Assembly (NCBI GenBank): GCA_021777555.1
Contig: JAJYDK010000001.1
Span: forward strand, 62,001-126,000
From: Pseudomonadota bacterium
Lineage (GTDB): Bacteria; Pseudomonadota; Gammaproteobacteria; Steroidobacterales; Steroidobacteraceae
Length of the DNA stretch: 64,000 nt
Direction of reading: 5' to 3'
Part shown: one piece after another, positions 11,386-26,943 of the stretch
How the letters are laid out: every line of letters begins with the position of its first letter
Numbering within the stretch: the first letter of the stretch is position 1
Program-made: the position numbers and the translations under genes
Notes under the pieces: generated by a model
Seen by the model: the letters and a program-made list of their open reading frames with translations, nothing else
What the model was told of the DNA's origin: nothing
Database searches by the model: none

Positions 11386-13509
11386 TCAAGGGCGAAAGAG
11401 GCTGTACAGCTCGTCCTCTTGCGCGAAATGCAGCGTCAGGATCGCATGCAGCCCGTAGAGCAGGCGGCGCAGGTCCCGGAGGTCCTCCGGCGCCGGACCC
11501 AGCGGGGGCAGGTGCTCCACGAGTCGCCCGAAGAGACGGCTCAGGCGCCGGATCTCGTTGTGCGTCTGGATGAGCGGGCCGGTCGGGTTCTCGCCCTTCA
11601 GCATTTTCTCGATGATCGGGTAGGCGGTCTGCTGCTCCTCGTTCTCATGGGGCAGCAGCTCCGTCTCGAGCATGTGGCGCAGCTGCTCGAGGCGGGAGCG
11701 CGCCTCGGCGGCCGGCAGGGTGTCGAGTTGTACGGCGAGGGTGGCGAGCTCGCTCACCCGGGGTCTGAGCGAGCGGTGGTGGCTCGCGAGGCCCTCGGCC
11801 AGGCCGCGCAGCTCGGGCCTCGCGGCGCCCGTGCCGCGCTCGCCCCCGAGCGCGCGCAGGGCGTTGAGAATGACCAGGATGTCGATGACCTCCTGCAGGA
11901 GCGCGCCGGCAACGGGCGCGATGAAGCCCGCGGCGGCGAAGGACATCGCCACCAGAGAAAGCCCCATGCCGGCGATCACGCTCTGCAGGGCGATCGCGCG
12001 GGTGCGCCGGGCAATGCGCACCGCCTGCGCGACGCCCTCGAAGCGGTCGGAGGTCAGGACCACGTCCGCGGCTTCCGAGGCTGCCGTGGCGCCCCGCGCG
12101 CCCATCGCGATCCCGACATCGGCCAGGGCGAGCGCTGGCGCGTCGTTGATTCCATCGCCGACCATGGCGAGGACGCCTTCCGAGCGCAACTGGCGAATGA
12201 CATCGACCTTCTCCTCGGGTGCGCGCTCGGCGAACACCCTGTCGACGCCGAGGACGTCGCCGACGAGCTCCGCGACATCCGGATGATCGCCCGTGACCAG
12301 GTGGATGCGCTCGATGCCGATGGCTCTGAGCTCGCGCAGGACGCGTGCCGTCTCCGGACGGATGGGATCATGCAGGAGCAATGCTCCGCAGAGCTTTCCG
12401 TCGATCGCGACAAACACCCCCGATGAGCCCTCGACCGCGGTGCGCAGCTCCACCGAGCGCAGCGTCGCCGGGTCACTGTCGGGGGCGACGAAGCGTCTCT
12501 GGCCGACCGCGACACGGTGCCCCCCGAGCTCTCCGCGGATCCCGCTCCCCATCTGCTCCTCGACACCGGCCGGGAAGCTGAGATCGAGGCCGCGATTGCG
12601 CGCCTCGGCGAGAATCGCCGGTGCGAAGGGATGAACGGAGAGCTGCTCGAGGGATGCGGCGTGGCGAATGAGCTCCTCCGGGGAGCAGGCGCCCACGGTC
12701 TCCACGGCGACGACTTCCGGGCGGGCGGAAGTGGCCGTGCCCGTCTTGTCGAGCACGAGCACGCGCGTTCGCGCAAGGGTCTCGAGCGCGGCGCCTCCCT
12801 TCATGATGATGCCGCGGCGTGCGGCGCGCGATATTCCGGCAATGATGGCCGCGGGTGCGGCCAGGATGAGCGGACAGGGGGTGGCGACCACGAGCACCGC
12901 GAGCGCCCGCAGGGGGCTCCCCGAGGCCAGCCAGGCGGCGGCGGACCCGATGAGGGTCAGGGCGAGAAAGGCGAACGCGTAGCGGTCCGCGAGGCGCACG
13001 AACGGCGCCTTGGAGTTCTCGGCGGCGCGCACCAGACGGATGATGCCCGCGTAGGTGCTCTCGGAGGCGATCGCGGTTACCTGCAGCTCGAAGGGGCCTG
13101 CGCAGTTGCTGCCGCCGCTGCGCACCGGGGTGCCGGGCTCGAGCCTGACGGGTCTTGATTCGCCGCTGAGCGAGGACTCATCGAGCACCGCGGTGCCCGA
13201 GTGGATCATGCCATCCACCGGAACGACTTCACCCGGCTTCACCACCAGCAGATCGCCGAGGCCGACGTCATCGACCGGAATGTCGATGAAGGCATCGCCT
13301 TGCCGGCGGTGTGCGAACCTCGGCGCCCGTCTAAGCAGTGCGCTCAGCTCGCGTCGCGCCCGCGCGCTCGCAAAGCTCTCGAGCGCCGTACCGCCCGTGA
13401 GCATCACCGCGATGACCGCTCCAGCCAGATATTGGCGCAGCAGCAGCGCGCCTCCCATCGCGAGGATGGCGATGACATCGACCCCAACCTCCCCGCGCAG
13501 CAGCCGCAT
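11386..13509 (-). CDS. P1B-type metal ATPase fused to a C-terminal hemerythrin domain (P1B-5-like)
   Basis: A heavy-metal P-type ATPase, 707 residues from ATG 13509. Visible are the actuator loop SGES (115-118), the membrane metal motif TPCPL (T210-L214), phosphorylated D254 in DKTGT, the HP motif (H293-P294), GDGIND (451-456) and six membrane helices. Residues about 570-707 form a hemerythrin-like domain with ligands near H578, H621/E625, H650, H688 and H694/E699. TPC plus a C-terminal hemerythrin is the P1B-5 pattern, whose studied members respond to nickel and iron. The frame stays coding-like for about 50 residues upstream (two further membrane helices) without ATG, GTG or TTG, so the true start may be a CTG near 13665. 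It is last in a three-gene operon. Confidence 0.88.
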   Translation of the reverse strand: MRLLRGEVGVDVIAILAMGGALLLRQYLAGAVIAVMLTGGTALESFASARARRELSALLRRAPRFAHRRQGDAFIDIPVDDVGLGDLLVVKPGEVVPVDGMIHSGTAVLDESSLSGESRPVRLEPGTPVRSGGSNCAGPFELQVTAIASESTYAGIIRLVRAAENSKAPFVRLADRYAFAFLALTLIGSAAAWLASGSPLRALAVLVVATPCPLILAAPAAIIAGISRAARRGIIMKGGAALETLARTRVLVLDKTGTATSARPEVVAVETVGACSPEELIRHAASLEQLSVHPFAPAILAEARNRGLDLSFPAGVEEQMGSGIRGELGGHRVAVGQRRFVAPDSDPATLRSVELRTAVEGSSGVFVAIDGKLCGALLLHDPIRPETARVLRELRAIGIERIHLVTGDHPDVAELVGDVLGVDRVFAERAPEEKVDVIRQLRSEGVLAMVGDGINDAPALALADVGIAMGARGATAASEAADVVLTSDRFEGVAQAVRIARRTRAIALQSVIAGMGLSLVAMSFAAAGFIAPVAGALLQEVIDILVILNALRALGGERGTGAARPELRGLAEGLASHHRSLRPRVSELATLAVQLDTLPAAEARSRLEQLRHMLETELLPHENEEQQTAYPIIEKMLKGENPTGPLIQTHNEIRRLSRLFGRLVEHLPPLGPAPEDLRDLRRLLYGLHAILTLHFAQEDELYSLFRP

Positions 13510-15928: not shown

Positions 15929-16026
15929 AATCGATGTCATATGGGTCCGTATTGAGGCGGCACGGCATGACGGAAAGAATCGTGGCCAGTGCGACGGCAA
16001 CCGCCGTCGATTCGAGGAGACATGTC

Positions 16027-18587
16027 GTGAACACGTTGACCACGAGATCCGGAAAGAGTTTCCTTCTGTCCGGTATCGCATCCCTTCTGGTCGCCGCCTC
16101 CCTGCCCGCTGCGGCGGCAACCTTTTCCGTCACGAGCACGGCGGACACCCCCGATGCGAATCTCGCGGACGGGGTGTGCGCGGACGCGAGCGGAGCCTGT
16201 ACGCTGCGGGCCGCCATCATGCAGGCCAATGCGCTCGGCGGGACCAATACCATCGACCTCAGTCTGATCAATGACCCGACCAACCCGATCATTCTGAGCA
16301 TCCCGGGCGTGGATGAGACCGTGACCGGCGACGCCGCCACCGGATTCGTCGTGACCTCGGCGCACGATGACACCAAGGGTGATCTCAACATCACCTCGAG
16401 CATGAACATCGTCGGGGCGGGCTCCGACAAGACGATCATCGAGTGGGATCCCTCGGTGAAGCAGGACCCGGCCAAGGGTGACCGGGTGTTTCACATCGAG
16501 GCCACCACGAGCAACATCGACGTCAGCATCACGGGAGTGACGATCGAAAACGGCGTCACGCCTGCGCCGCAGGTGCTCGAGACCAATTCCGATGGGACGT
16601 ACTACCAGTTCGAGCGCTGGGGCGGTGGCCTCGCGGTCGGACCGTCGGCCTCCGTGACGCTCATCAATCCGGCGCTGAGCGGCAGCGAGGGCGGCAGCGC
16701 CGGGGATGAGGGCGGGGCGGCGCCGGGGGGAGCGATGAGGGAGAGTCGTCCGCCGTGGTGAACAGCGTCACGCTCACGGACGTGCGCCTGCTCGATGACC
16801 AGAGTGGCACCGCGGGTGGCGGCATCTCGAGCGCGGGTCCGCTCACGCTCGACAACGTCTTGCTGAGCGGCAATATCGCCGTGACGAATGGCGGGGCCAT
16901 CTACAACGACGCACAGCTGACCATCAGGAACTTCACCATAGGCACGACCTCGGGATTCACAACTCCGAACAGCGCCGAAGGGGGCGGAGGGATATTCGAC
17001 ACGGGGATGCACAATACGGACATCAGCGGCAGCGCCATCGTCGGCAACAAGGGTGTCGGCGGAGGAGGCATATCGGCCCGCTCGCTCGTGACGATGACCA
17101 TCACCAATACCACCATTGCCAACAATGAGGCATCGGACGTCGGTGCTGGAATCACGACGAACGGACCGATCACGCTCAAGAACGACACCATCGCGGGCAA
17201 TTCGGCAGCCAATGACTCGACCAGCGGCGGCGCGGGATTGAACGCGTTCGGCAGCGGCGTCTACAACTTCGTGAACACCGCGTTCCAGAACAATCTGGCA
17301 ACGGGATCGGGTGTCTCGGCGAGCTGCGGATGCAGCGGCTCTTCGTGCAAATCGGGAGTGTTCGTGTCTCAGGGGCATAACATGTCGGACGATGCCACCT
17401 GCGCTCCGAACACTTCTCTCGGCGACTTTTCGAAGACCAATGCGCAACTGCAGGCTCTGGCGGGCAATGGCGGACCGACGGAGACCATGGCGCTGCTCAT
17501 GAACACGCCCGCCGTGGATGCCGGCGACAATGCCAATTGTCCGAACACGGACCAGCGCGGGAACATGCGCCCGGCGGACGGGAATCTGAAGGGTAACATG
17601 ACGTGCGACATAGGGGCCTATGAGCTGTTCACCCCGAGCAATGACCTGCACGTGAGCGGCAAGCGGGCCCACAACCGCGTGCGGCGCGGACAGCCGGCGG
17701 AAGTCGGTTTCGACTTCACCAACGACCCCGGCGCGTCGGCGGACGCCACGGGCGTGACGATGACGACCGATCCGCTGCCCTCCGCGTACGACTTCGCGGG
17801 TGCGACCATGACCCTGGGCGGCACTGCGACCAGCTGTCCGTTCGATGCCAGTAGCCGCGTGGTGAGCTGCGATGTCGGCACGCTCGCCAGGGGGCAGACG
17901 GTGTCGCTCGACCTGCAGGGCTCGGCGGCGGCCGTTGGAACCATGGAGATCACCGCCCATGTGTCGGCGACCGCGCCGATAGACCTGTTCCCGGACAACA
18001 ACACGAGCACGGTCACGATGCTCGTCCAGGGAAACAGCAACATGGCGATCACCGCGACCGGTCCCACGCAGAATCCGACGGTCAATGGATCGGCCCCGGT
18101 GAGTTTCACGGTGAAGAACCTCGGGCCGGACCAGGCCAACAACGTGCAGGTGCTGGCACGGTTCCAGAACAGGATGCGCTATCAGAAGATGCAGCTCTCG
18201 AATGGCGGCACCTGCACGCTGGGCCAGGACAACGCCAATTCGGTGTGCAAGCTGGGAAGCATCGCCTCGGGAGCATCCGTGACCGGGACGCTCAATCTGC
18301 AGCCGACGTCGGAGGGAACGGCGACGGTGGACCTGGAAGTCGCGACGGATGACTACGATGAGGATGTGAGCAACAACGTCGTGAGCGTGCCCCTGACGAT
18401 CGCGGCGGAAACGCCGACCACTCCGACCACACCGACGACCCCGACCACGAGCACATCAGGTGGCGGCGGCTGCGTGTCGCAGCCCGGTGGGCCGTTCGAT
18501 CCGACGCTGCTCGTGCTCGCCTTGGGCGGAGTGGCGGGGATCGCCTCGCGCCGCTGGAGGAAGGCGCGCACGGGTGGCGGTCGCTGA
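16027..18587 (+). CDS. CSLREA-domain beta-helix surface protein with JDVT-like sorting tail (frameshifted)
   Basis: A secreted protein of about 853 residues if one base is restored. GTG 16027 has GAGGAG seven bases upstream and gives a signal peptide (FLLSGIASLLVAASLPAAAA). The CSLREA-type domain follows (TFSVTSTADTPDAN, ACTLRAAI), then right-handed beta-helix repeats (GGGISS.GPLTLDN, GGAIYND), a DUF11-like region, a Thr/Pro linker and the tail GGGCVSQPGGPFDPTLLVLA with membrane helix and RRWRK. The frame shifts by -1 near the G6 run at 16725-16730; the first frame stops at 16761 and the second is open across it. The paralogue at 21549-24128 aligns through both parts and has similar length. 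It could be a pseudogene, an assembly error or programmed slippage. Confidence 0.8.
16725..16731 (+). other. Probable frameshift site (G6A run)
   Basis: In the upstream frame the bases read CCG GGG GGA. One base fewer than needed is present to join it to the downstream frame, which reads DEGESSAVVNSVTLTDV in line with GESESGATIEMVTLSDV of the paralogue. G GGG GGA also fits an X XXX XXY slippery heptamer. Homopolymer miscall, real mutation and -1 slippage are all possible. Confidence 0.65.
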
Positions 18588-18609
18588 GGGGACCGTCGCG
18601 GCGAGGCTG

Positions 18610-18640
18610 AGCGGAGGCGATCGTCCGGATCGCCTCCGCT
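18610..18640 (+). other. Perfect 13-bp hairpin inside the sorting operon
   Basis: AGCGGAGGCGATC, loop GTCCG, GATCGCCTCCGCT gives a perfect 13-bp stem between the first and second genes. No T-run follows, so it is not a standard terminator; it could stabilise or process the mRNA or attenuate downstream expression. Confidence 0.55.
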
Positions 18641-18670
18641 TCGCGGAAGAGGGCGGCAGGAGTCGATGCC

Positions 18671-19099
18671 ATGCGCATGAGAGGGGAACTGGAGAGAGGG
18701 ACGGGTGGCCTCGCCCGTTGCCGGCGCGAGTGGGCGCTCTGGGCGGTCGGTTCCGCGCTGCTGCTCGCACTGGTGGGCGCCGGGTGCAGGACCCAGGGGC
18801 GCGGTGTCACGCCCGTGGCAGGAAGTTCGGCTCCCTCGGCGAAGATCTCCCCGCGACTCACCGCGCAGCGAGGCGCGCAGGGAGTGGTGCTCGCGGTTCT
18901 CATCCGCACCGAGGGTCCGCTGAGCGGGCAGCAGCGTCGGCAGTTGCGCGCGGCCGGGGTCGCAGTGGACGGGGTGAGCGGTGACATCGTCAGTGGACGG
19001 GTGGCGACGCGGTGCCTCGAGCGGTTGTCCGCATTGCCTTTTGTTCGATACATCGAGCCGGGCTCACGGCTGGGGCCGGCGCGCGAGGAGCGGCGATGA
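18671..19099 (+). CDS. Small exported prodomain-like protein coupled to the subtilase
   Basis: A 142-residue protein. ATG 18671 has AGGAG nine bases upstream. A hydrophobic segment (ALWAVGSALLLALVGAGC) ends in a possible but non-canonical lipobox (GAGC). The folded part (VVLAVLIRTEGPLSGQQRRQ, then GVAVDGVSGDIVSGRV, LERLSALPFVRYIEPGSRL) has the beta-alpha-beta rhythm and terminal LP.VRYIE.. of subtilisin prodomains/I9 inhibitors and of the region before the catalytic domain of the next gene. Its stop overlaps that gene's ATG (ATGA). I infer a stand-alone inhibitor or folding partner of the protease; similarity is by eye only. Confidence 0.7.
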   Translation: MRMRGELERGTGGLARCRREWALWAVGSALLLALVGAGCRTQGRGVTPVAGSSAPSAKISPRLTAQRGAQGVVLAVLIRTEGPLSGQQRRQLRAAGVAVDGVSGDIVSGRVATRCLERLSALPFVRYIEPGSRLGPAREERR

Positions 19100-21549
19100 T
19101 GGGTGGCCTCAAGTGGCGGGTCGGTGTGGTTCTTGCCGCGGTAGTGCTGCCGTTCGCGGCCGGTGGCGAGACGATGCGGCTCGCGCCGCTCGCCACCTTG
19201 CTCCTGCGCCAGAGCGAGGGCTCCGCGATGCTCGGCGTCCTGCGACAGAAGGGCATGGTGCATCGCGCGGTGGGCAACCAGCCGGAGCGCGTCTCGACTT
19301 TGGTGCGTTTCTCCGGTTCCGTACCGGATGTTTCGGCGATCGGGGGCGGCATCCGCTGGCGCGCGGGGGATGTCGCCGAGGTGGATGTGCCGCGCAATGA
19401 GCTCGCGGCTCTCGCGGGGCTGGCTGGAGTCACGTACGTCGATGCGGCAACGCCTTTGCGGCCGCAGCTCGATGTCGCGGTGCCGCAGACCGGTGCCTCC
19501 GCGATGCGCAGCGGCACCCCGCCCGACTGGCACGGGGATACCGGGCGCAACGTGCTCGTGGCGATTCTCGACACCGGGGTCGATCTCAAGCATCAGGATT
19601 TCCGCGATGCGGCCGGCAAGACGCGCATCGTGCAGCTGTTCGATTACACGAGCGGTCAGAACTGTACGCAGGCCGAGATCGATGCACAGCAGTGCGCGGA
19701 AGTCGACACCGACGGTCACGGGACGGAGGTGGCCGGGATCGCCACGGGAAACGGCTCGGCGACCGGCAATGGGGAGGCGGCGTACCGGTTCATCGGGATG
19801 GCCCCGGAGGCGAGTCTCATCGTCGCCAAGGGTGAGTGGACCACGGCGAACATCGTGCAGGCGGTGAGCGATGCCGAGGGAGTGGCCAGCTCGCTCGGCC
19901 GCCCGATCGCGATCAACCTGAGTCTCGGCACGGAGATCGGTCCGCATGATGGGACCGACAACGCCGACCGGGCGCTCGACAATGAGTCCGGGCCGGGCCG
20001 CATCATCGTGGTCGCCGCCGGCAACCATGCCAACGACGACACCCATGCCTCGGCAACGGTGCCCGCGGGCGGCTCGATCGTCACCGACCTCGAGGTTCCC
20101 GTCGATACCAGTCTCACGCTGCTCGACATCTGGTATCCGGGACCCGATCAGCTCGCGGTCCATCTGCACAACACGGCGGAATGCGACTCGGGCCTGGTGT
20201 CGGCGCCGGTGTCCCAGTCCTCGACCGAGGCGACATTCTGCAGCGGTCGCGGCACCATCGTGTCCGGGAACGTCAATCCCCTGAACGGGGATCGGGAGAT
20301 CCTCGTCACTTTGACGACCACGGGCTCGAACCCGTTCTCGAGCTCGGCATGGCAGCTCGAGCTGCGTGGCACCGTGGTCGCCAACGGGCATTTCGACGCC
20401 TGGATGAACGGCTCCGAAAGCGGTGCGAAATTCCTGTCGAACCTCGACTCGAGCGACACTCTGAGCGATATCGCCACTGCGAGCTCGGTCATCGCGGTCG
20501 GGGCCTTCAACACCAAGAACAGCTGGTACAGCCTCGCGGGTCCCATGACGACCGAGGTGTCGAATCCGCTCGGGACGCTCGCCTACTTCAGCAGCAGCGG
20601 CCCCCGGCGCGCGTGCAGTCTCTCCACCGAGTGCCCCTCGACCCAGAAGCCGGAGATTTCCGCCCCGGGCGCCTGGATCGCCTCGGCCTACTCGGCCGAG
20701 ACCGTGTGGCCGACCGGTGAGTGCTCCGACTGCTACCTCGATCTGGACGGCGTGCACCGCTACGGGCAGGGGACCAGCATGGCGGCGCCGATCGCGACCG
20801 GCGCCGTGGCCCTGCTGCTTCAGGTGGCGCCGGCCGCCGACCCGGCGCAGATCAAGGACTCCCTCGAGCGCTACGCGACGGTGGACGATTTCGTCGGCCA
20901 GGCGCCGAACGACACCTGGGGCTACGGCAAGCTCAACGTCAAGGCGGCCTTCGATGCGCTGCCGGTCCCGCTGCCGGCGCCGCCCACGGACCTGGCGGAT
21001 TCCGTGAGCGGCAGCAGTGCGGTGCTCTCGTGGACGGCCGACACGGCCATCGACATCGACGGCTACAACGTCTACCGCAGTACATCGAGCGACGGGACGG
21101 CCACGAAGCTCGCCACAGTGAGCTACGCCAGCTCCACGTACACCGACGCGGGACTCGCCTCCGGCACCTACTACTACACGGTGCGCGCGCTCGATACCAA
21201 GGGACAGGAAAGCCTCTCCTCCGCCCAGGTGTCGGCCGCGATCGGCTCCACGCCCACCACTGCCACCACGAGCAGCAGCTCTTCCGGCGGCGGCTGCGTC
21301 AGCCGGCCGGGGAAGGGGTCCGATCCGACCCTCGCGGTGCTCGCCATGGCGGCGGCGCTGTGGCTGCTCGGCGCCCGGCGCAGGGGAGGTCCACGGGGCG
21401 ATGCGGCGCGCTGCGCAAACGGCGGGCTGTCCCGGGCTGCCCCCGCCGAGACCCCGGCGTGCGGTAGCGCCGCAGGCAGCGAGGGGCGGTCTGTGTCTAA
21501 GCCCGACTCCCCGGCCTCGAGCCGGGAGCGGTACTCGGGAGGTGTGTGA
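19096..21549 (+). CDS. Subtilisin-family (S8) serine protease with FnIII domain and JDVT-like sorting tail
   Basis: An 817-residue secreted protease. ATG 19096 overlaps the previous stop and has GAGGAG five bases upstream; a signal peptide ends near AAGG. Residues about 70-130 resemble a subtilase prodomain. The catalytic triad is D159 (AILDTGVD), H208 (DGHGTEVAGIATG) and S561 (GQGTSMAAPIATG), with a large insertion between H and S. A fibronectin type III domain follows at about 623-717 (DIDGYNVYRS, YYYTVRALD), then a Ser/Thr linker and GGGCVSRPGKGSDPTLAVLA, helix, ARRR. About 50 more residues follow the Arg cluster, unlike its sisters. It is probably a surface-anchored protease. Confidence 0.88.
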   Translation: MMGGLKWRVGVVLAAVVLPFAAGGETMRLAPLATLLLRQSEGSAMLGVLRQKGMVHRAVGNQPERVSTLVRFSGSVPDVSAIGGGIRWRAGDVAEVDVPRNELAALAGLAGVTYVDAATPLRPQLDVAVPQTGASAMRSGTPPDWHGDTGRNVLVAILDTGVDLKHQDFRDAAGKTRIVQLFDYTSGQNCTQAEIDAQQCAEVDTDGHGTEVAGIATGNGSATGNGEAAYRFIGMAPEASLIVAKGEWTTANIVQAVSDAEGVASSLGRPIAINLSLGTEIGPHDGTDNADRALDNESGPGRIIVVAAGNHANDDTHASATVPAGGSIVTDLEVPVDTSLTLLDIWYPGPDQLAVHLHNTAECDSGLVSAPVSQSSTEATFCSGRGTIVSGNVNPLNGDREILVTLTTTGSNPFSSSAWQLELRGTVVANGHFDAWMNGSESGAKFLSNLDSSDTLSDIATASSVIAVGAFNTKNSWYSLAGPMTTEVSNPLGTLAYFSSSGPRRACSLSTECPSTQKPEISAPGAWIASAYSAETVWPTGECSDCYLDLDGVHRYGQGTSMAAPIATGAVALLLQVAPAADPAQIKDSLERYATVDDFVGQAPNDTWGYGKLNVKAAFDALPVPLPAPPTDLADSVSGSSAVLSWTADTAIDIDGYNVYRSTSSDGTATKLATVSYASSTYTDAGLASGTYYYTVRALDTKGQESLSSAQVSAAIGSTPTTATTSSSSSGGGCVSRPGKGSDPTLAVLAMAAALWLLGARRRGGPRGDAARCANGGLSRAAPAETPACGSAAGSEGRSVSKPDSPASSRERYSGGV

Positions 21550-24128
21550 TGAACGCGCGATCATGGTTGCGGGGCCGATCGGTCCTCTCCCTCGTCGCAG
21601 GCATCCTGGCGGGCGCCGCGCTCGCAGCGAGAGCCGATGCGACCACATTCGATGTCAATACAACGGCGGATGTGCCCGCATCGCCCGCGGCCGTGGCACA
21701 GGGAGTGTGCGATGACGGTCAAGGCGCTTGCAGTCTGCGGGCGGCCATCCAGGTGGCCGATGCCGCCTCGACGCCGAGCACGATCGTCCTGCCCGCGGGA
21801 ACGTACACCCTCACGGTGGCCGGGGTGGATGAGTCGGCGGCGTTCGCAAACGGTGCGTACGCGGTCGATCACGTGCCGGATCCCTCGAGAGGCGATCTCA
21901 ATATCACCCAGAGCATGACCCTCCTCGGAGCGGGCTCGCAGAAGACGTTCATCGGGTGGGCCGCCGGATCCGAGCAGGATCGGGTGTTTCACATCGAGAT
22001 ACCGCCCTCGGCCGCGCAGAACCTCACCGTGACCATCCAGGGCGTGACGGTCGAAAATGGCTACGTGCCCGCGCCGGTCAACCTCGATGCGTCCGTGCCG
22101 ACCGCGGTGGTGCGGATCGCGCGCATGGGCGGGGGAATCGCGATCGGGGCGGGCGCGGAAATCCAGACGGTCGATTCAACTTTCACCGAGGGTGCGGAGG
22201 AGGAGGGGGAGTGCGGGGGAGGCGGCAAGATGGGCGGCGGGGCGTGCGCCGGCCCGGAAGGCCACGGCGGACCCGGGGAGAGCGAGTCCGGCGCCACCAT
22301 CGAGATGGTCACGCTTTCCGATGTGCGCGTGACGGGAAACCATGCCGGAGGGGAGGGCGGTGGCATCTATAACACCGGCCCCATCACGCTCGATCACGTG
22401 GTCATCGCCGGCAACAGCAGCGATGCCAACGGCGGGGGACTGTACAACGATGCGGTCATGCTGATGAAGGACAGCGAGGTCGGTACCCTCGACCAGCCGA
22501 ACTCGGCCGGCAATGGCGGCGGTCTCTTCGAGACGGGCTTTCACACCTCGGTCATCGAGCGCAGCGCCTTCATAGGCAACAGCGCCTCCTCGGGGGCGGG
22601 AATCGCCGGGCGCAGGATGGTGCTCGAGATCATCAGCCGCTCGACCATCGCAATGAACGCCGCCCGGGACGGGGGCGGCGGCATTCAGACCAACGGCAGG
22701 GTGCAGCTCATCAACGATACCGTCTCCGGAAACACGGCCTCGGGCAAGCCGGGCAAATCCGGCGCGGGCCTGAACGGATTCGGGCCGGCGAGCCAGATGC
22801 CGGCCGGCGGCATGGCGAACGCGGCGAATTTCACACTGGTGAACACCATCGTGTCGAACAACGCCTACGTCGGCGCGACGCCGGTGGTGACGAATTGCGG
22901 CGGCAAGGGGGAGTCCGGTCCGGCAACCCGCTTCTATTCCATGGGGCACAACATCGAGGACGCCGATACCTGCGGACTCACGGCCGTCGGTGATCGGATC
23001 AATACCAATCCCCTGCTCGGGCCTCTTGCGGACAATCAAGGGCCGACGCCGACCATGGCGCTGATGCCCGGGAGCCCCGCCATCGATGCCGGTGACAGCG
23101 CGCAGTGCCCGAATGAGGATCAGCGGGGGCAGATGGGACGCGCCGATGGCAACATCGACGGAAATTTCGTCTGCGACGTGGGCGCCTACGAGCTGTTCGT
23201 GCCTTCGGCGGACCTGATCATGAGTGCGGTGAACGCCCCTGATCAGGCGTTCGTCGGTGATTCGTTCGAGGTGACCGCCACCGCGAGCATCGACGCGGCC
23301 GCGACCGGCTCATCCACCGGGGTGAGAGTCATGACCTCGGCGCTGCCCTCGTCGATGACGCTCGACTCGGCCTCGATCACCACACCCGCGGGAACACAGG
23401 CCTGCTCGATGGCCTCGGGCGTCGTGACCTGCGAGGCAGGCACGCTCGCGCCCGGGGCGGTGGCCAAGATGTCATTGATGCTGTCCGCAGCCACGGTAGA
23501 TGCGGGCAGTGACATCATCTTCTCGGGGACGCAGTCCTCGCCCGTCGACCCGAATCTTGCCAACAACGCGGCGATGATGAGGATGAGGCTCATCGGCATC
23601 TCGGATCTCAAGGTGAGCTCCGCCGGCCCGCGCAGCGCGATGATGCAGGGGAACCAGTATTTCACGACGTTTTCAATCGTGAATTCCGGCCCGGATGAGG
23701 CCACCAGCATCCGCGTGGGCGTGTTCCTGCCCGCCAACGTGACATACGACTCGATCGATCTTCCGGGAGCCAGCTGCAATTACGACGGAACGGATACCCC
23801 GGCCACGGTGAGCTGCACGGTGGACTCGCTCCCCGCCGGGAGCACGCTCTCGGGGCTGCTCACGGTCACGGCCGCGGACAGCGGCTCCGGGACCGCGACC
23901 ATCGCGGTGGATGCGCCTGAGCGGGACGTGAACCTCAACGACAATACGCAGACTCAGGTCCTCTCGGTGACGGCCGAGATCCCGGTGGCGAGCACCCCCG
24001 CGGGTGGCGGCGGCGGAGGCTGCGCGAGTCGTCCCGGAGGGAGCTTCGATCCGGCACTGATCGTGCTCGGGATCCTCGGCGTGCTCGGTGTGCGGCGCTC
24101 GCGCAGACGGGACGCGCAGCGCGGCTGA
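21549..24128 (+). CDS. CSLREA-domain beta-helix surface protein with JDVT-like sorting tail
   Basis: An 859-residue secreted protein, intact paralogue of the first gene of the operon. ATG 21549 shares its A with the TGA of the protease (TGATG) and has GGAGG six bases upstream. After the signal peptide come the CSLREA-type domain (TFDVNTTADVPAS, ACSLRAAI), beta-helix repeats (GEGGGIYNTGPITLDHVV, NGGGLYND) with an acidic Gly-rich loop, two DUF11-like domains (from about residue 556) and the tail GGGGCASRPGGSFDPALIVL, helix, RRSRRRD. Likely an adhesin-like or structural surface protein anchored after tail processing. No catalytic site is seen. Confidence 0.85.
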   Translation: MNARSWLRGRSVLSLVAGILAGAALAARADATTFDVNTTADVPASPAAVAQGVCDDGQGACSLRAAIQVADAASTPSTIVLPAGTYTLTVAGVDESAAFANGAYAVDHVPDPSRGDLNITQSMTLLGAGSQKTFIGWAAGSEQDRVFHIEIPPSAAQNLTVTIQGVTVENGYVPAPVNLDASVPTAVVRIARMGGGIAIGAGAEIQTVDSTFTEGAEEEGECGGGGKMGGGACAGPEGHGGPGESESGATIEMVTLSDVRVTGNHAGGEGGGIYNTGPITLDHVVIAGNSSDANGGGLYNDAVMLMKDSEVGTLDQPNSAGNGGGLFETGFHTSVIERSAFIGNSASSGAGIAGRRMVLEIISRSTIAMNAARDGGGGIQTNGRVQLINDTVSGNTASGKPGKSGAGLNGFGPASQMPAGGMANAANFTLVNTIVSNNAYVGATPVVTNCGGKGESGPATRFYSMGHNIEDADTCGLTAVGDRINTNPLLGPLADNQGPTPTMALMPGSPAIDAGDSAQCPNEDQRGQMGRADGNIDGNFVCDVGAYELFVPSADLIMSAVNAPDQAFVGDSFEVTATASIDAAATGSSTGVRVMTSALPSSMTLDSASITTPAGTQACSMASGVVTCEAGTLAPGAVAKMSLMLSAATVDAGSDIIFSGTQSSPVDPNLANNAAMMRMRLIGISDLKVSSAGPRSAMMQGNQYFTTFSIVNSGPDEATSIRVGVFLPANVTYDSIDLPGASCNYDGTDTPATVSCTVDSLPAGSTLSGLLTVTAADSGSGTATIAVDAPERDVNLNDNTQTQVLSVTAEIPVASTPAGGGGGGCASRPGGSFDPALIVLGILGVLGVRRSRRRDAQRG

Positions 24129-24143
24129 GGGGGTGGTGCGACC

Positions 24144-24701
24144 ATGGCGCGATGGAAGATCACATCGAGCCGCCAGGCCGGGGAGGAGGGTGCGATTGCG
24201 CGCGGCCGGACCCCGTTGGCCTCGGCGTGCGCTGCGGCTTGGGAGGCTGTTCTCGCGCTGCCGGACGGATTTCTCGGTGACCCGGTGTGGTGGGCATTCG
24301 GGTGGGTGGGACTGCTGGCGGATATCGCGCTTGGGCTGATGTTTCCGGCGGCACTCTCGGGGTCGGTGCTGCATGGGGCCGCTCAGTGGCTCTCCTGTGT
24401 GCTCTGGCAGCCGGTGCTCGAGGAGGTCGTGTTTCGCTGGATGCTCCAAGGCGAGCTGCTGCGCACCGGCTGGGGGTCGAAGCGGATTGGCCAGATCAGT
24501 GCGGCGAACCTCCTCTGTTCATTGGGGTTCACCGCGATGCACTTCGCGCACCATCCGCCCCTTTGGGCGGCGAGTGTGTTCGTACCCTCTCTCATCTTCG
24601 GGTGGCTGCGTGAGCGCTACGACGGCGTCGGGGCGCCGATCGGGATGCATGTGCTGTACAACCTGGAGTTCTTCACGGTCGCTGCGCTGTTCATCGCCTG
24701 A
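24144..24701 (+). CDS. mrtJ: CPBP-family glutamic intramembrane protease, probable JDVT-CTERM sorting protease
   Basis: A 185-residue polytopic membrane protein of the CPBP/Abi family. Catalytic motifs are E93-E94...R98 (LEEVVFRWM), F129...H133 (FTAMH) and H169...N173 (HVLYN). It begins 15 bases after the second CSLREA gene, behind AGGGGG, and closes an operon of three proteins with the same Cys-containing C-terminal tail. Small CPBP proteases of the MrtJ type are paired with JDVT-CTERM tails, so it most likely cleaves these tails in the inner membrane. The assignment to MrtJ rests on operon context and motif recognition; it could be another CPBP protease. Confidence 0.78.
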   Translation: MARWKITSSRQAGEEGAIARGRTPLASACAAAWEAVLALPDGFLGDPVWWAFGWVGLLADIALGLMFPAALSGSVLHGAAQWLSCVLWQPVLEEVVFRWMLQGELLRTGWGSKRIGQISAANLLCSLGFTAMHFAHHPPLWAASVFVPSLIFGWLRERYDGVGAPIGMHVLYNLEFFTVAALFIA

Positions 24702-26031: not shown

Positions 26032-26943
26032 TTGGCTGCGCACGCCATGGGTGAGGAGGTCGAAGTCGCCGTACTGTTCGCCGACGTGGTGGGCTCGACC
26101 CGCCTCTACGAGCGGATGGGCGATCAGCGGGCGCGCGATCTCGTCTCAACGTGCATCGAGGTGATGCGTGAGGCGACCGAGGAGCACGGCGGCACGGTCG
26201 TCAAGACCATCGGCGATGAGGTCATGGCCACCTTCCCGAGCGCCGATCAGGCGCTCTCCGCCGCCGCCCAGATGCAGAAGCACATCGTGGGCCACTCGGG
26301 ACTGCGCGTCGACGGCCAGCCGGTGGCGATCCGCATCGGCTGCCACTTCGGTCCGGTCATGGCCGAGAGTCAGGACATCTTCGGCGTCACCGTCCATACC
26401 GCCAACCGCATGACCAGCCAGGCGAAGGCGGGCCAGGTCATCATCACCGAGGCCACCGTCGCCCGGCTCTCGCCCCAATGGCGCAGCGCCTGTCGACTGA
26501 TCGACAACGCGCCGATCAAGGGGCAGGGAAACGAGGTGCCGCTCTACGAAGTGCTCTGGCAGGCCGACGATGTGACGAGCATGGTCCGCCAGGTGCCGCT
26601 GTCGGCCGATCAGTCCTGCAGCGTGCGCCTGAAGCTCTGGTGGCTCGACCGCGAGATCACGATAGACGAGCAACACTCCGTGCTCACCATCGGGCGCGCC
26701 GATGAGAACGACCTGGTGGTCAAGGGCAGCCTCATCTCGCGGCTGCACGCGCGCATCGAATTCGCGCGCCACAAGTTCATGCTGATCGACCACAGCACCA
26801 ACGGCACCTTCGTGCGCGCGGCCACCGGCGAGGAGTCCTTCGTGCGCCGCGATACGCTGCAGCTGAAGGGGGCCGGTACGATCGGTCTCGGGCGCCTGCC
26901 GGAGGCCGAATCCGCGCAGACGATCCGCTTCGTCTGCGAGTGA
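26032..26943 (+). CDS. Class III adenylate/guanylate cyclase with C-terminal FHA domain
   Basis: A 303-residue soluble protein. Residues about 8-175 form a class III nucleotidyl cyclase domain: metal-binding Asp in VLFADVVGSTRLYE and in TIGDEVMATF, and the later HTANRMTSQAK segment. Residues about 215-290 form an FHA phosphothreonine-binding domain (TIGRADENDLVV, SRLHARIEF, STNGTFVR). The start is TTG 26032 with GGGGGAG upstream; ATG 26047 is an alternative without a ribosome site. The FHA part suggests recruitment by a phosphorylated partner; a Ser/Thr kinase is encoded at 40028. It makes cAMP or possibly cGMP; the substrate is not certain. Confidence 0.87.
   Translation: MAAHAMGEEVEVAVLFADVVGSTRLYERMGDQRARDLVSTCIEVMREATEEHGGTVVKTIGDEVMATFPSADQALSAAAQMQKHIVGHSGLRVDGQPVAIRIGCHFGPVMAESQDIFGVTVHTANRMTSQAKAGQVIITEATVARLSPQWRSACRLIDNAPIKGQGNEVPLYEVLWQADDVTSMVRQVPLSADQSCSVRLKLWWLDREITIDEQHSVLTIGRADENDLVVKGSLISRLHARIEFARHKFMLIDHSTNGTFVRAATGEESFVRRDTLQLKGAGTIGLGRLPEAESAQTIRFVCE

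Follow-up and report, generated by a model that had tools for sequence, protein, structure and literature searches.

Within a 64,000-nucleotide stretch of a Steroidobacteraceae contig (the window), we examined a locus on the forward strand, spanning positions 16027–24701, that encodes proteins with JDVT-CTERM-type tails together with a CPBP protease. It comprises client A (in two frames), a lipoprotein-like gene, a subtilase (client S8), client C and the CPBP protein. ATGA overlaps join the lipoprotein gene to the subtilase gene and the subtilase gene to that of client C, and 15 bp separate client C from the protease gene. Client A, placed in the same coupled operon by a first-pass annotation of the sequence, is set apart from these four genes by an 83-bp gap containing a hairpin with a 13-bp stem. 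In genome G037, of the same genus, a strong hairpin of different sequence lies at the equivalent site between the client A-type and lipoprotein genes.

Features of the JDVT-CTERM/MrtJ locus (positions are those of the window)
Feature	Position	Strand	Basis and remarks
Client A, 5' part	16027..16758	+	GTG start; signal peptide by eye; CSLREA N-terminal domain; frame stop at 16761
Frame-change stretch of client A	16710..16758	+	-1 relative to upstream frame; G6 run in Gly/Ser-rich linker
Client A, 3' part	16755..18587	+	choice-of-anchor Q, DUF11, JDVT-CTERM tail; 610-aa frame
Hairpin, 13-bp stem, no T run	18610..18640	+	between client A and lipoprotein gene
Lipoprotein-like gene, 142 aa	18671..19099	+	C-terminal domain, residues 71-131, modelled with ferredoxin-like subtilisin-propeptide fold
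Subtilase (Peptidase_S8), client S8, 817 aa	19096..21549	+	Pfam/NCBIfam; JDVT-CTERM tail at residues 729-763
Client C, 859 aa	21549..24128	+	choice-of-anchor Q, DUF11, JDVT-like tail; paralogue of client A
MrtJ, glutamic intramembrane protease, 185 aa	24144..24701	+	NF033192 profile

The last gene does encode, as first described, a small CPBP protease with EE...R, F...H and H...N motifs, and profile comparison identified this protein as MrtJ: it scored 113.6 bits on NF033192, above the equivalog cut-off of 75, the next-best profile being MrtP (62 bits, against that profile's own cut-off of 250). The motifs are EE..FR at residues 93–98, F...H at 129–133 and H...N at 169–173, and E93, E94, R98, H133, H169 and N173 were invariant in an alignment of 22 MrtJ proteins, the window's included, which represents part of the MrtJ proteins found. 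A search of solved structures by the MrtJ sequence gave no useful match.

In the translations, three proteins share a tail (GGGCVSQPGGPFDPTL, GGGCVSRPGKGSDPTL and GGGCASRPGGSFDPAL), each with an invariant Cys followed by one hydrophobic helix, judged by eye, and then an Arg/basic cluster. Using the JDVT-CTERM profile NF033191 (NCBIfam, curated cut-off 27 bits), we found that the tails of client A (33.2 bits; residues 568–600 of the 610-aa frame) and S8 (29.9 bits; residues 729–763 of 817) score above the cut-off, whereas that of client C falls below it (18.2 bits for the protein itself and 21.7 when the genome was searched). Judged by profile, A and S8 carry genuine JDVT-CTERM sorting signals; the tail of client C can be called JDVT-like by sequence and context only. 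All three proteins had been said to end with the tail, but S8 continues for 54 residues after the profile match (21385–21546), where its G037 orthologue has 16.

When the subtilase was compared with the other clients by BLAST at E ≤ 0.01, the tail alone matched in client A (E = 0.002) and client C gave no match. Otherwise unrelated passengers with one and the same tail are to be expected if the tail is a sorting tag. Clients A and C are paralogues, both with choice-of-anchor Q and DUF11 domains, and CSLREA_Nterm exceeded its cut-off of 25 in A (27.7 bits) but not in C (16.2 bits). By domain content, one client is a subtilase and the others resemble surface proteins of the choice-of-anchor Q/DUF11 kind, and we found no evidence for the "protease-decorated surface layer" envisaged earlier. 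Likewise, Pfam and NCBIfam scans of the window's proteins listed no S-layer family. A related passenger is known from Rhombotarget A (TIGR04212) of Acinetobacter, whose GlyGly-CTERM tail pairs with rhombosortase. Weak matches to RbtA were seen in one relative of client A (in G037, 22.7 bits) and one of client C (in genome G006, 25.7 bits), far under the RbtA cut-off of 295, and the NCBIfam scan listed no RbtA match for the window's own versions of these two clients; that system also differs in its tail and in employing a rhomboid serine protease.

Of the substrate sizes first reported (853, 817 and 859 residues), the latter two stand, but client A is not one 853-residue open reading frame (ORF), and the claim of three intact substrates fails for the locus as sequenced. 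An upstream ORF (15934–16761) is followed in another frame by the tail-bearing ORF (16755–18587). Orthologues of client A in G006 and G037 (two copies), however, cross the frame-change stretch as single ORFs, and on this ground we rejected a programmed frameshift as a conserved device. This frame change could mark client A as a decaying pseudogene, leaving a working system with two clients. We consider that rather unlikely, since both halves are 62–70% identical to the intact G006 and G037 orthologues with no further stop in either, and since the draft assembly, in 117 contigs, may have been misread at this one site beside a G6 run. The sequence is compatible with such an error as well as with a recent mutation.

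The tails and the protease are also linked at the level of the genome. A search of the 4.0-Mb, 117-contig genome with the JDVT profile gave eight matches at E ≤ 10, of which only the operon's three, two of them over the cut-off, had E ≤ 0.01. MrtJ had a single match at E ≤ 1e-10 among five Rce1-like proteins, in agreement with the idea of a dedicated protease despite the four others. We then compared two genome sets, each including the window's own genome; up to 20 candidate tails were scored per genome, so that tail counts are minimum values. Among 196 relatives, MrtJ was over its cut-off in 10 genomes, a tail over its cut-off in at least 11, and both in at least 9 (Fisher 5.6e-13). Among 369 genomes of the class, 53 had MrtJ, at least 39 had a tail at E ≤ 1e-5, and at least 37 had both (Fisher 9e-36); the exceptions, among the tails scored, were 16 genomes with MrtJ alone and two (G320, G529) with a tail alone. 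The JDVT-CTERM/MrtJ pairing stated in the first-pass annotation is supported by the curated profiles, by co-occurrence in both sets and by the presence of tails and MrtJ together in this genome.

At least 68 tails were counted in the class. Of these, 17 are same-strand neighbors of MrtJ at a distance of no more than 10 kb and are spread over 16 genomes, with one in each of 15 and two in the window's genome, where the third tail exceeds the E ≤ 1e-5 limit of this count. Two further tails lie near MrtJ on the opposite strand. Because 15 of these 16 genomes have one nearby tail, it is rare in the class sample for MrtJ to have more than one tail beside it. In the set of relatives, multi-client arrangements were observed in two genomes of the same genus, G037 (A-A'-lipoprotein-S8-C-MrtJ, four clients) and G006 (A-C-MrtJ, two clients), and in G149 of another family, where MrtJ precedes two clients. 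As whole proteins, the G037 tails of S8 (23.0 bits) and C (25.1 bits) fall below 27, but all four G037 tails are above it in the genome search.

In the account given by PMC11980579, the JDVT/MrtJ locus pairs MrtJ with just one JDVT protein. The window's locus has the same tail profile, the same protease equivalog and adjacent genes, but in place of this two-gene neighborhood it has three tails, two over the cut-off, and its three clients include a subtilase preceded by a propeptide-fold lipoprotein. Both the multi-client operon and the lipoprotein ahead of the subtilase client go beyond the description in that text. Among the literature titles and abstract openings listed, we found no multi-client MrtJ operon and no lipoprotein propeptide for a sorted subtilase, although Haft 2024 (J Bacteriol 206:e00173-23), the reference for the JDVT-CTERM/MrtJ system, may describe them.

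We think it likely that the operon specifies a C-terminal sorting system of the JDVT-CTERM/MrtJ type that has several of its clients encoded in cis, a reading in which we include lipidation, surface delivery by a type II secretion system (T2SS) and a role for the lipoprotein. For lipidation, cleavage and the export route, we infer a likely mechanism by analogy with MrtX. Sec would export clients A, S8 and C, and the tail helix would keep them in the inner membrane, its Arg cluster on the cytoplasmic side. A housekeeping enzyme would then acylate the invariant Cys, MrtJ would cleave beside the modified Cys and free the client from its helix, and the T2SS would deliver the folded, lipid-anchored client to the cell surface, on the outside of the outer membrane. 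The MYXO-CTERM/MrtX system of Myxococcus xanthus, as presented in the accessible portion of PMC11980579, likewise combines an invariant Cys, a helix, an Arg cluster, a CPBP protease and a T2SS route; there, MrtX cleaves the MYXO-CTERM protein TraA, requires the Cys and is active in E. coli, surface display of TraA is T2SS-dependent, the lipid step is a prediction, and Lgt is the candidate acylating enzyme. The earlier suggestion that the conserved Cys is an anchor or processing point is consistent with this work. The two systems differ in phylum and profiles (the MrtX profile gives the window's MrtJ 34.1 bits, with a cut-off of 180), and M. xanthus is credited in the same text with 35 MYXO-CTERM proteins.

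The locus had been called self-contained, and for substrates and protease it is. Beyond these, no acyltransferase was seen among the operon genes, and the gene for the T2SS secretin GspD (513.8 bits, cut-off 351.35), by which alone we judged the T2SS, lies on the same contig ~117 kb away. Across the class, GspD was counted at E ≤ 1e-100 in 223 genomes (220 over its cut-off), and it occurred in 50 of 53 MrtJ genomes versus 173 of 316 others (Fisher 4e-9, kinship ignored); the MrtJ genomes without a match were G293, G372 and G505.

Alternatively, MrtJ might serve the operon, but its clients would remain on the periplasmic side of the inner membrane or simply be set free once cut, with neither lipid anchor nor surface display. 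The literature covered, in the parts available, gives no demonstrated lipidation of any JDVT protein, the MrtX lipid step is drawn as predicted and some of the TraA is reported to be released (PMC11980579), and GspD went unmatched in two genomes that have both MrtJ and a tail. We nevertheless consider this outcome improbable. The Cys fell within the first 12 positions in 66 of 66 class tails, a partly circular result as the tails were picked by a Cys-containing profile; the T2SS co-occurs with MrtJ; and a CSLREA-domain protein is among the putative T2SS effectors of Acinetobacter in the available part of PMC9245377. In the literature covered, JDVT-CTERM sorting is so far a prediction, for which this operon offers a clean test case, because one protease and two kinds of client occur together and the genome holds no other convincing profile client.

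The 142-aa lipoprotein-like gene, whose end overlaps the start of the subtilase gene, was absent from the earlier account. The model of its C-terminal domain (residues 71–131) has a propeptide-type fold, and in structure comparisons propeptides or pro-forms made up the best 19 VIA rows and Foldseek ranks 2–5. Against Pfam, at a maximum E of 10, no family was listed, an I9/propeptide profile included, and relatives came near such families below cut-off only; the G365 counterpart reached 20.5 bits on Fervidolysin_NPro-like, just under the cut-off of 21. A homologue in G037 is 39% identical over 95 aa, and where the gene was found it sits immediately before a subtilase gene. S8's own N-terminal region was modelled with a mean pLDDT of 47.2, too low to use against the lipoprotein. 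We infer that the small lipoprotein is probably a propeptide or inhibitor acting in trans, which would fold or restrain S8 before its arrival at the surface.

It is conceivable, if not what we favor, that the ferredoxin-like domain has another role and that the protein is neither inhibitor nor propeptide of S8. The predominance of propeptides among the structural matches, the near-cut-off score of the G365 counterpart and the position directly upstream of the subtilase gene argue against this. Returning to an inhibitory propeptide, a more doubtful extension is that a lipidated, membrane-tethered propeptide keeps the JDVT-tailed surface subtilase inactive until MrtJ cleavage and T2SS export part the two. 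If so, the subtilase would be switched on by sorting itself, and its substrates or partners would be clients A and C, anchored beside it. The lipoprotein with its propeptide-type fold suggests a way in which cells may keep a surface protease in check while it is being sorted.

We also examined the DNA beyond the tail for 17 clients of the class. In seven of these, in seven genomes (G405, G505, G499, G271, G510, G237 and G258), a JDVT client with DxDxDG-type repeats is followed by a gene for an OmpA-type barrel and then by MrtJ. G383 and G457:C12 have a client and a barrel-like gene with no MrtJ in the stretch examined. Four others (G405:C99, G339:C6, G269:C74 and G372:C258) have an internal tail, beyond which the reading frame stays open across a second signal-peptide-like stretch and on into a barrel, giving apparent client-barrel polyproteins; three of them reach an OmpA-like end and the fourth runs off its contig. 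In the two examples run through Pfam, one with separate genes and one fused, both the OmpA barrel and the OmpA domain were detected, and the remaining barrel calls rest on motif or on reading. Myxococcus offers a parallel to the triad in TraA/TraB and MXAN_5598, and MXAN_5598 is reported to have the fused architecture, with an internal MYXO-CTERM tail ahead of an OmpA barrel (PMC11980579).

Composition gave no sign of recent transfer, as GC content is 67.3% in the operon and 68.4 and 68.5% in the flanking 10 kb. The operon is bordered on the left, on the opposite strand, by a 378-aa gene with no Pfam match at E ≤ 0.001, and on the right by a dihydrouridine synthase gene. Elsewhere in the window, Pfam identified a P-type ATPase carrying a C-terminal hemerythrin domain (11386–13509, reverse strand) and an adenylate/guanylate cyclase domain fused to an FHA domain (26032–26943).
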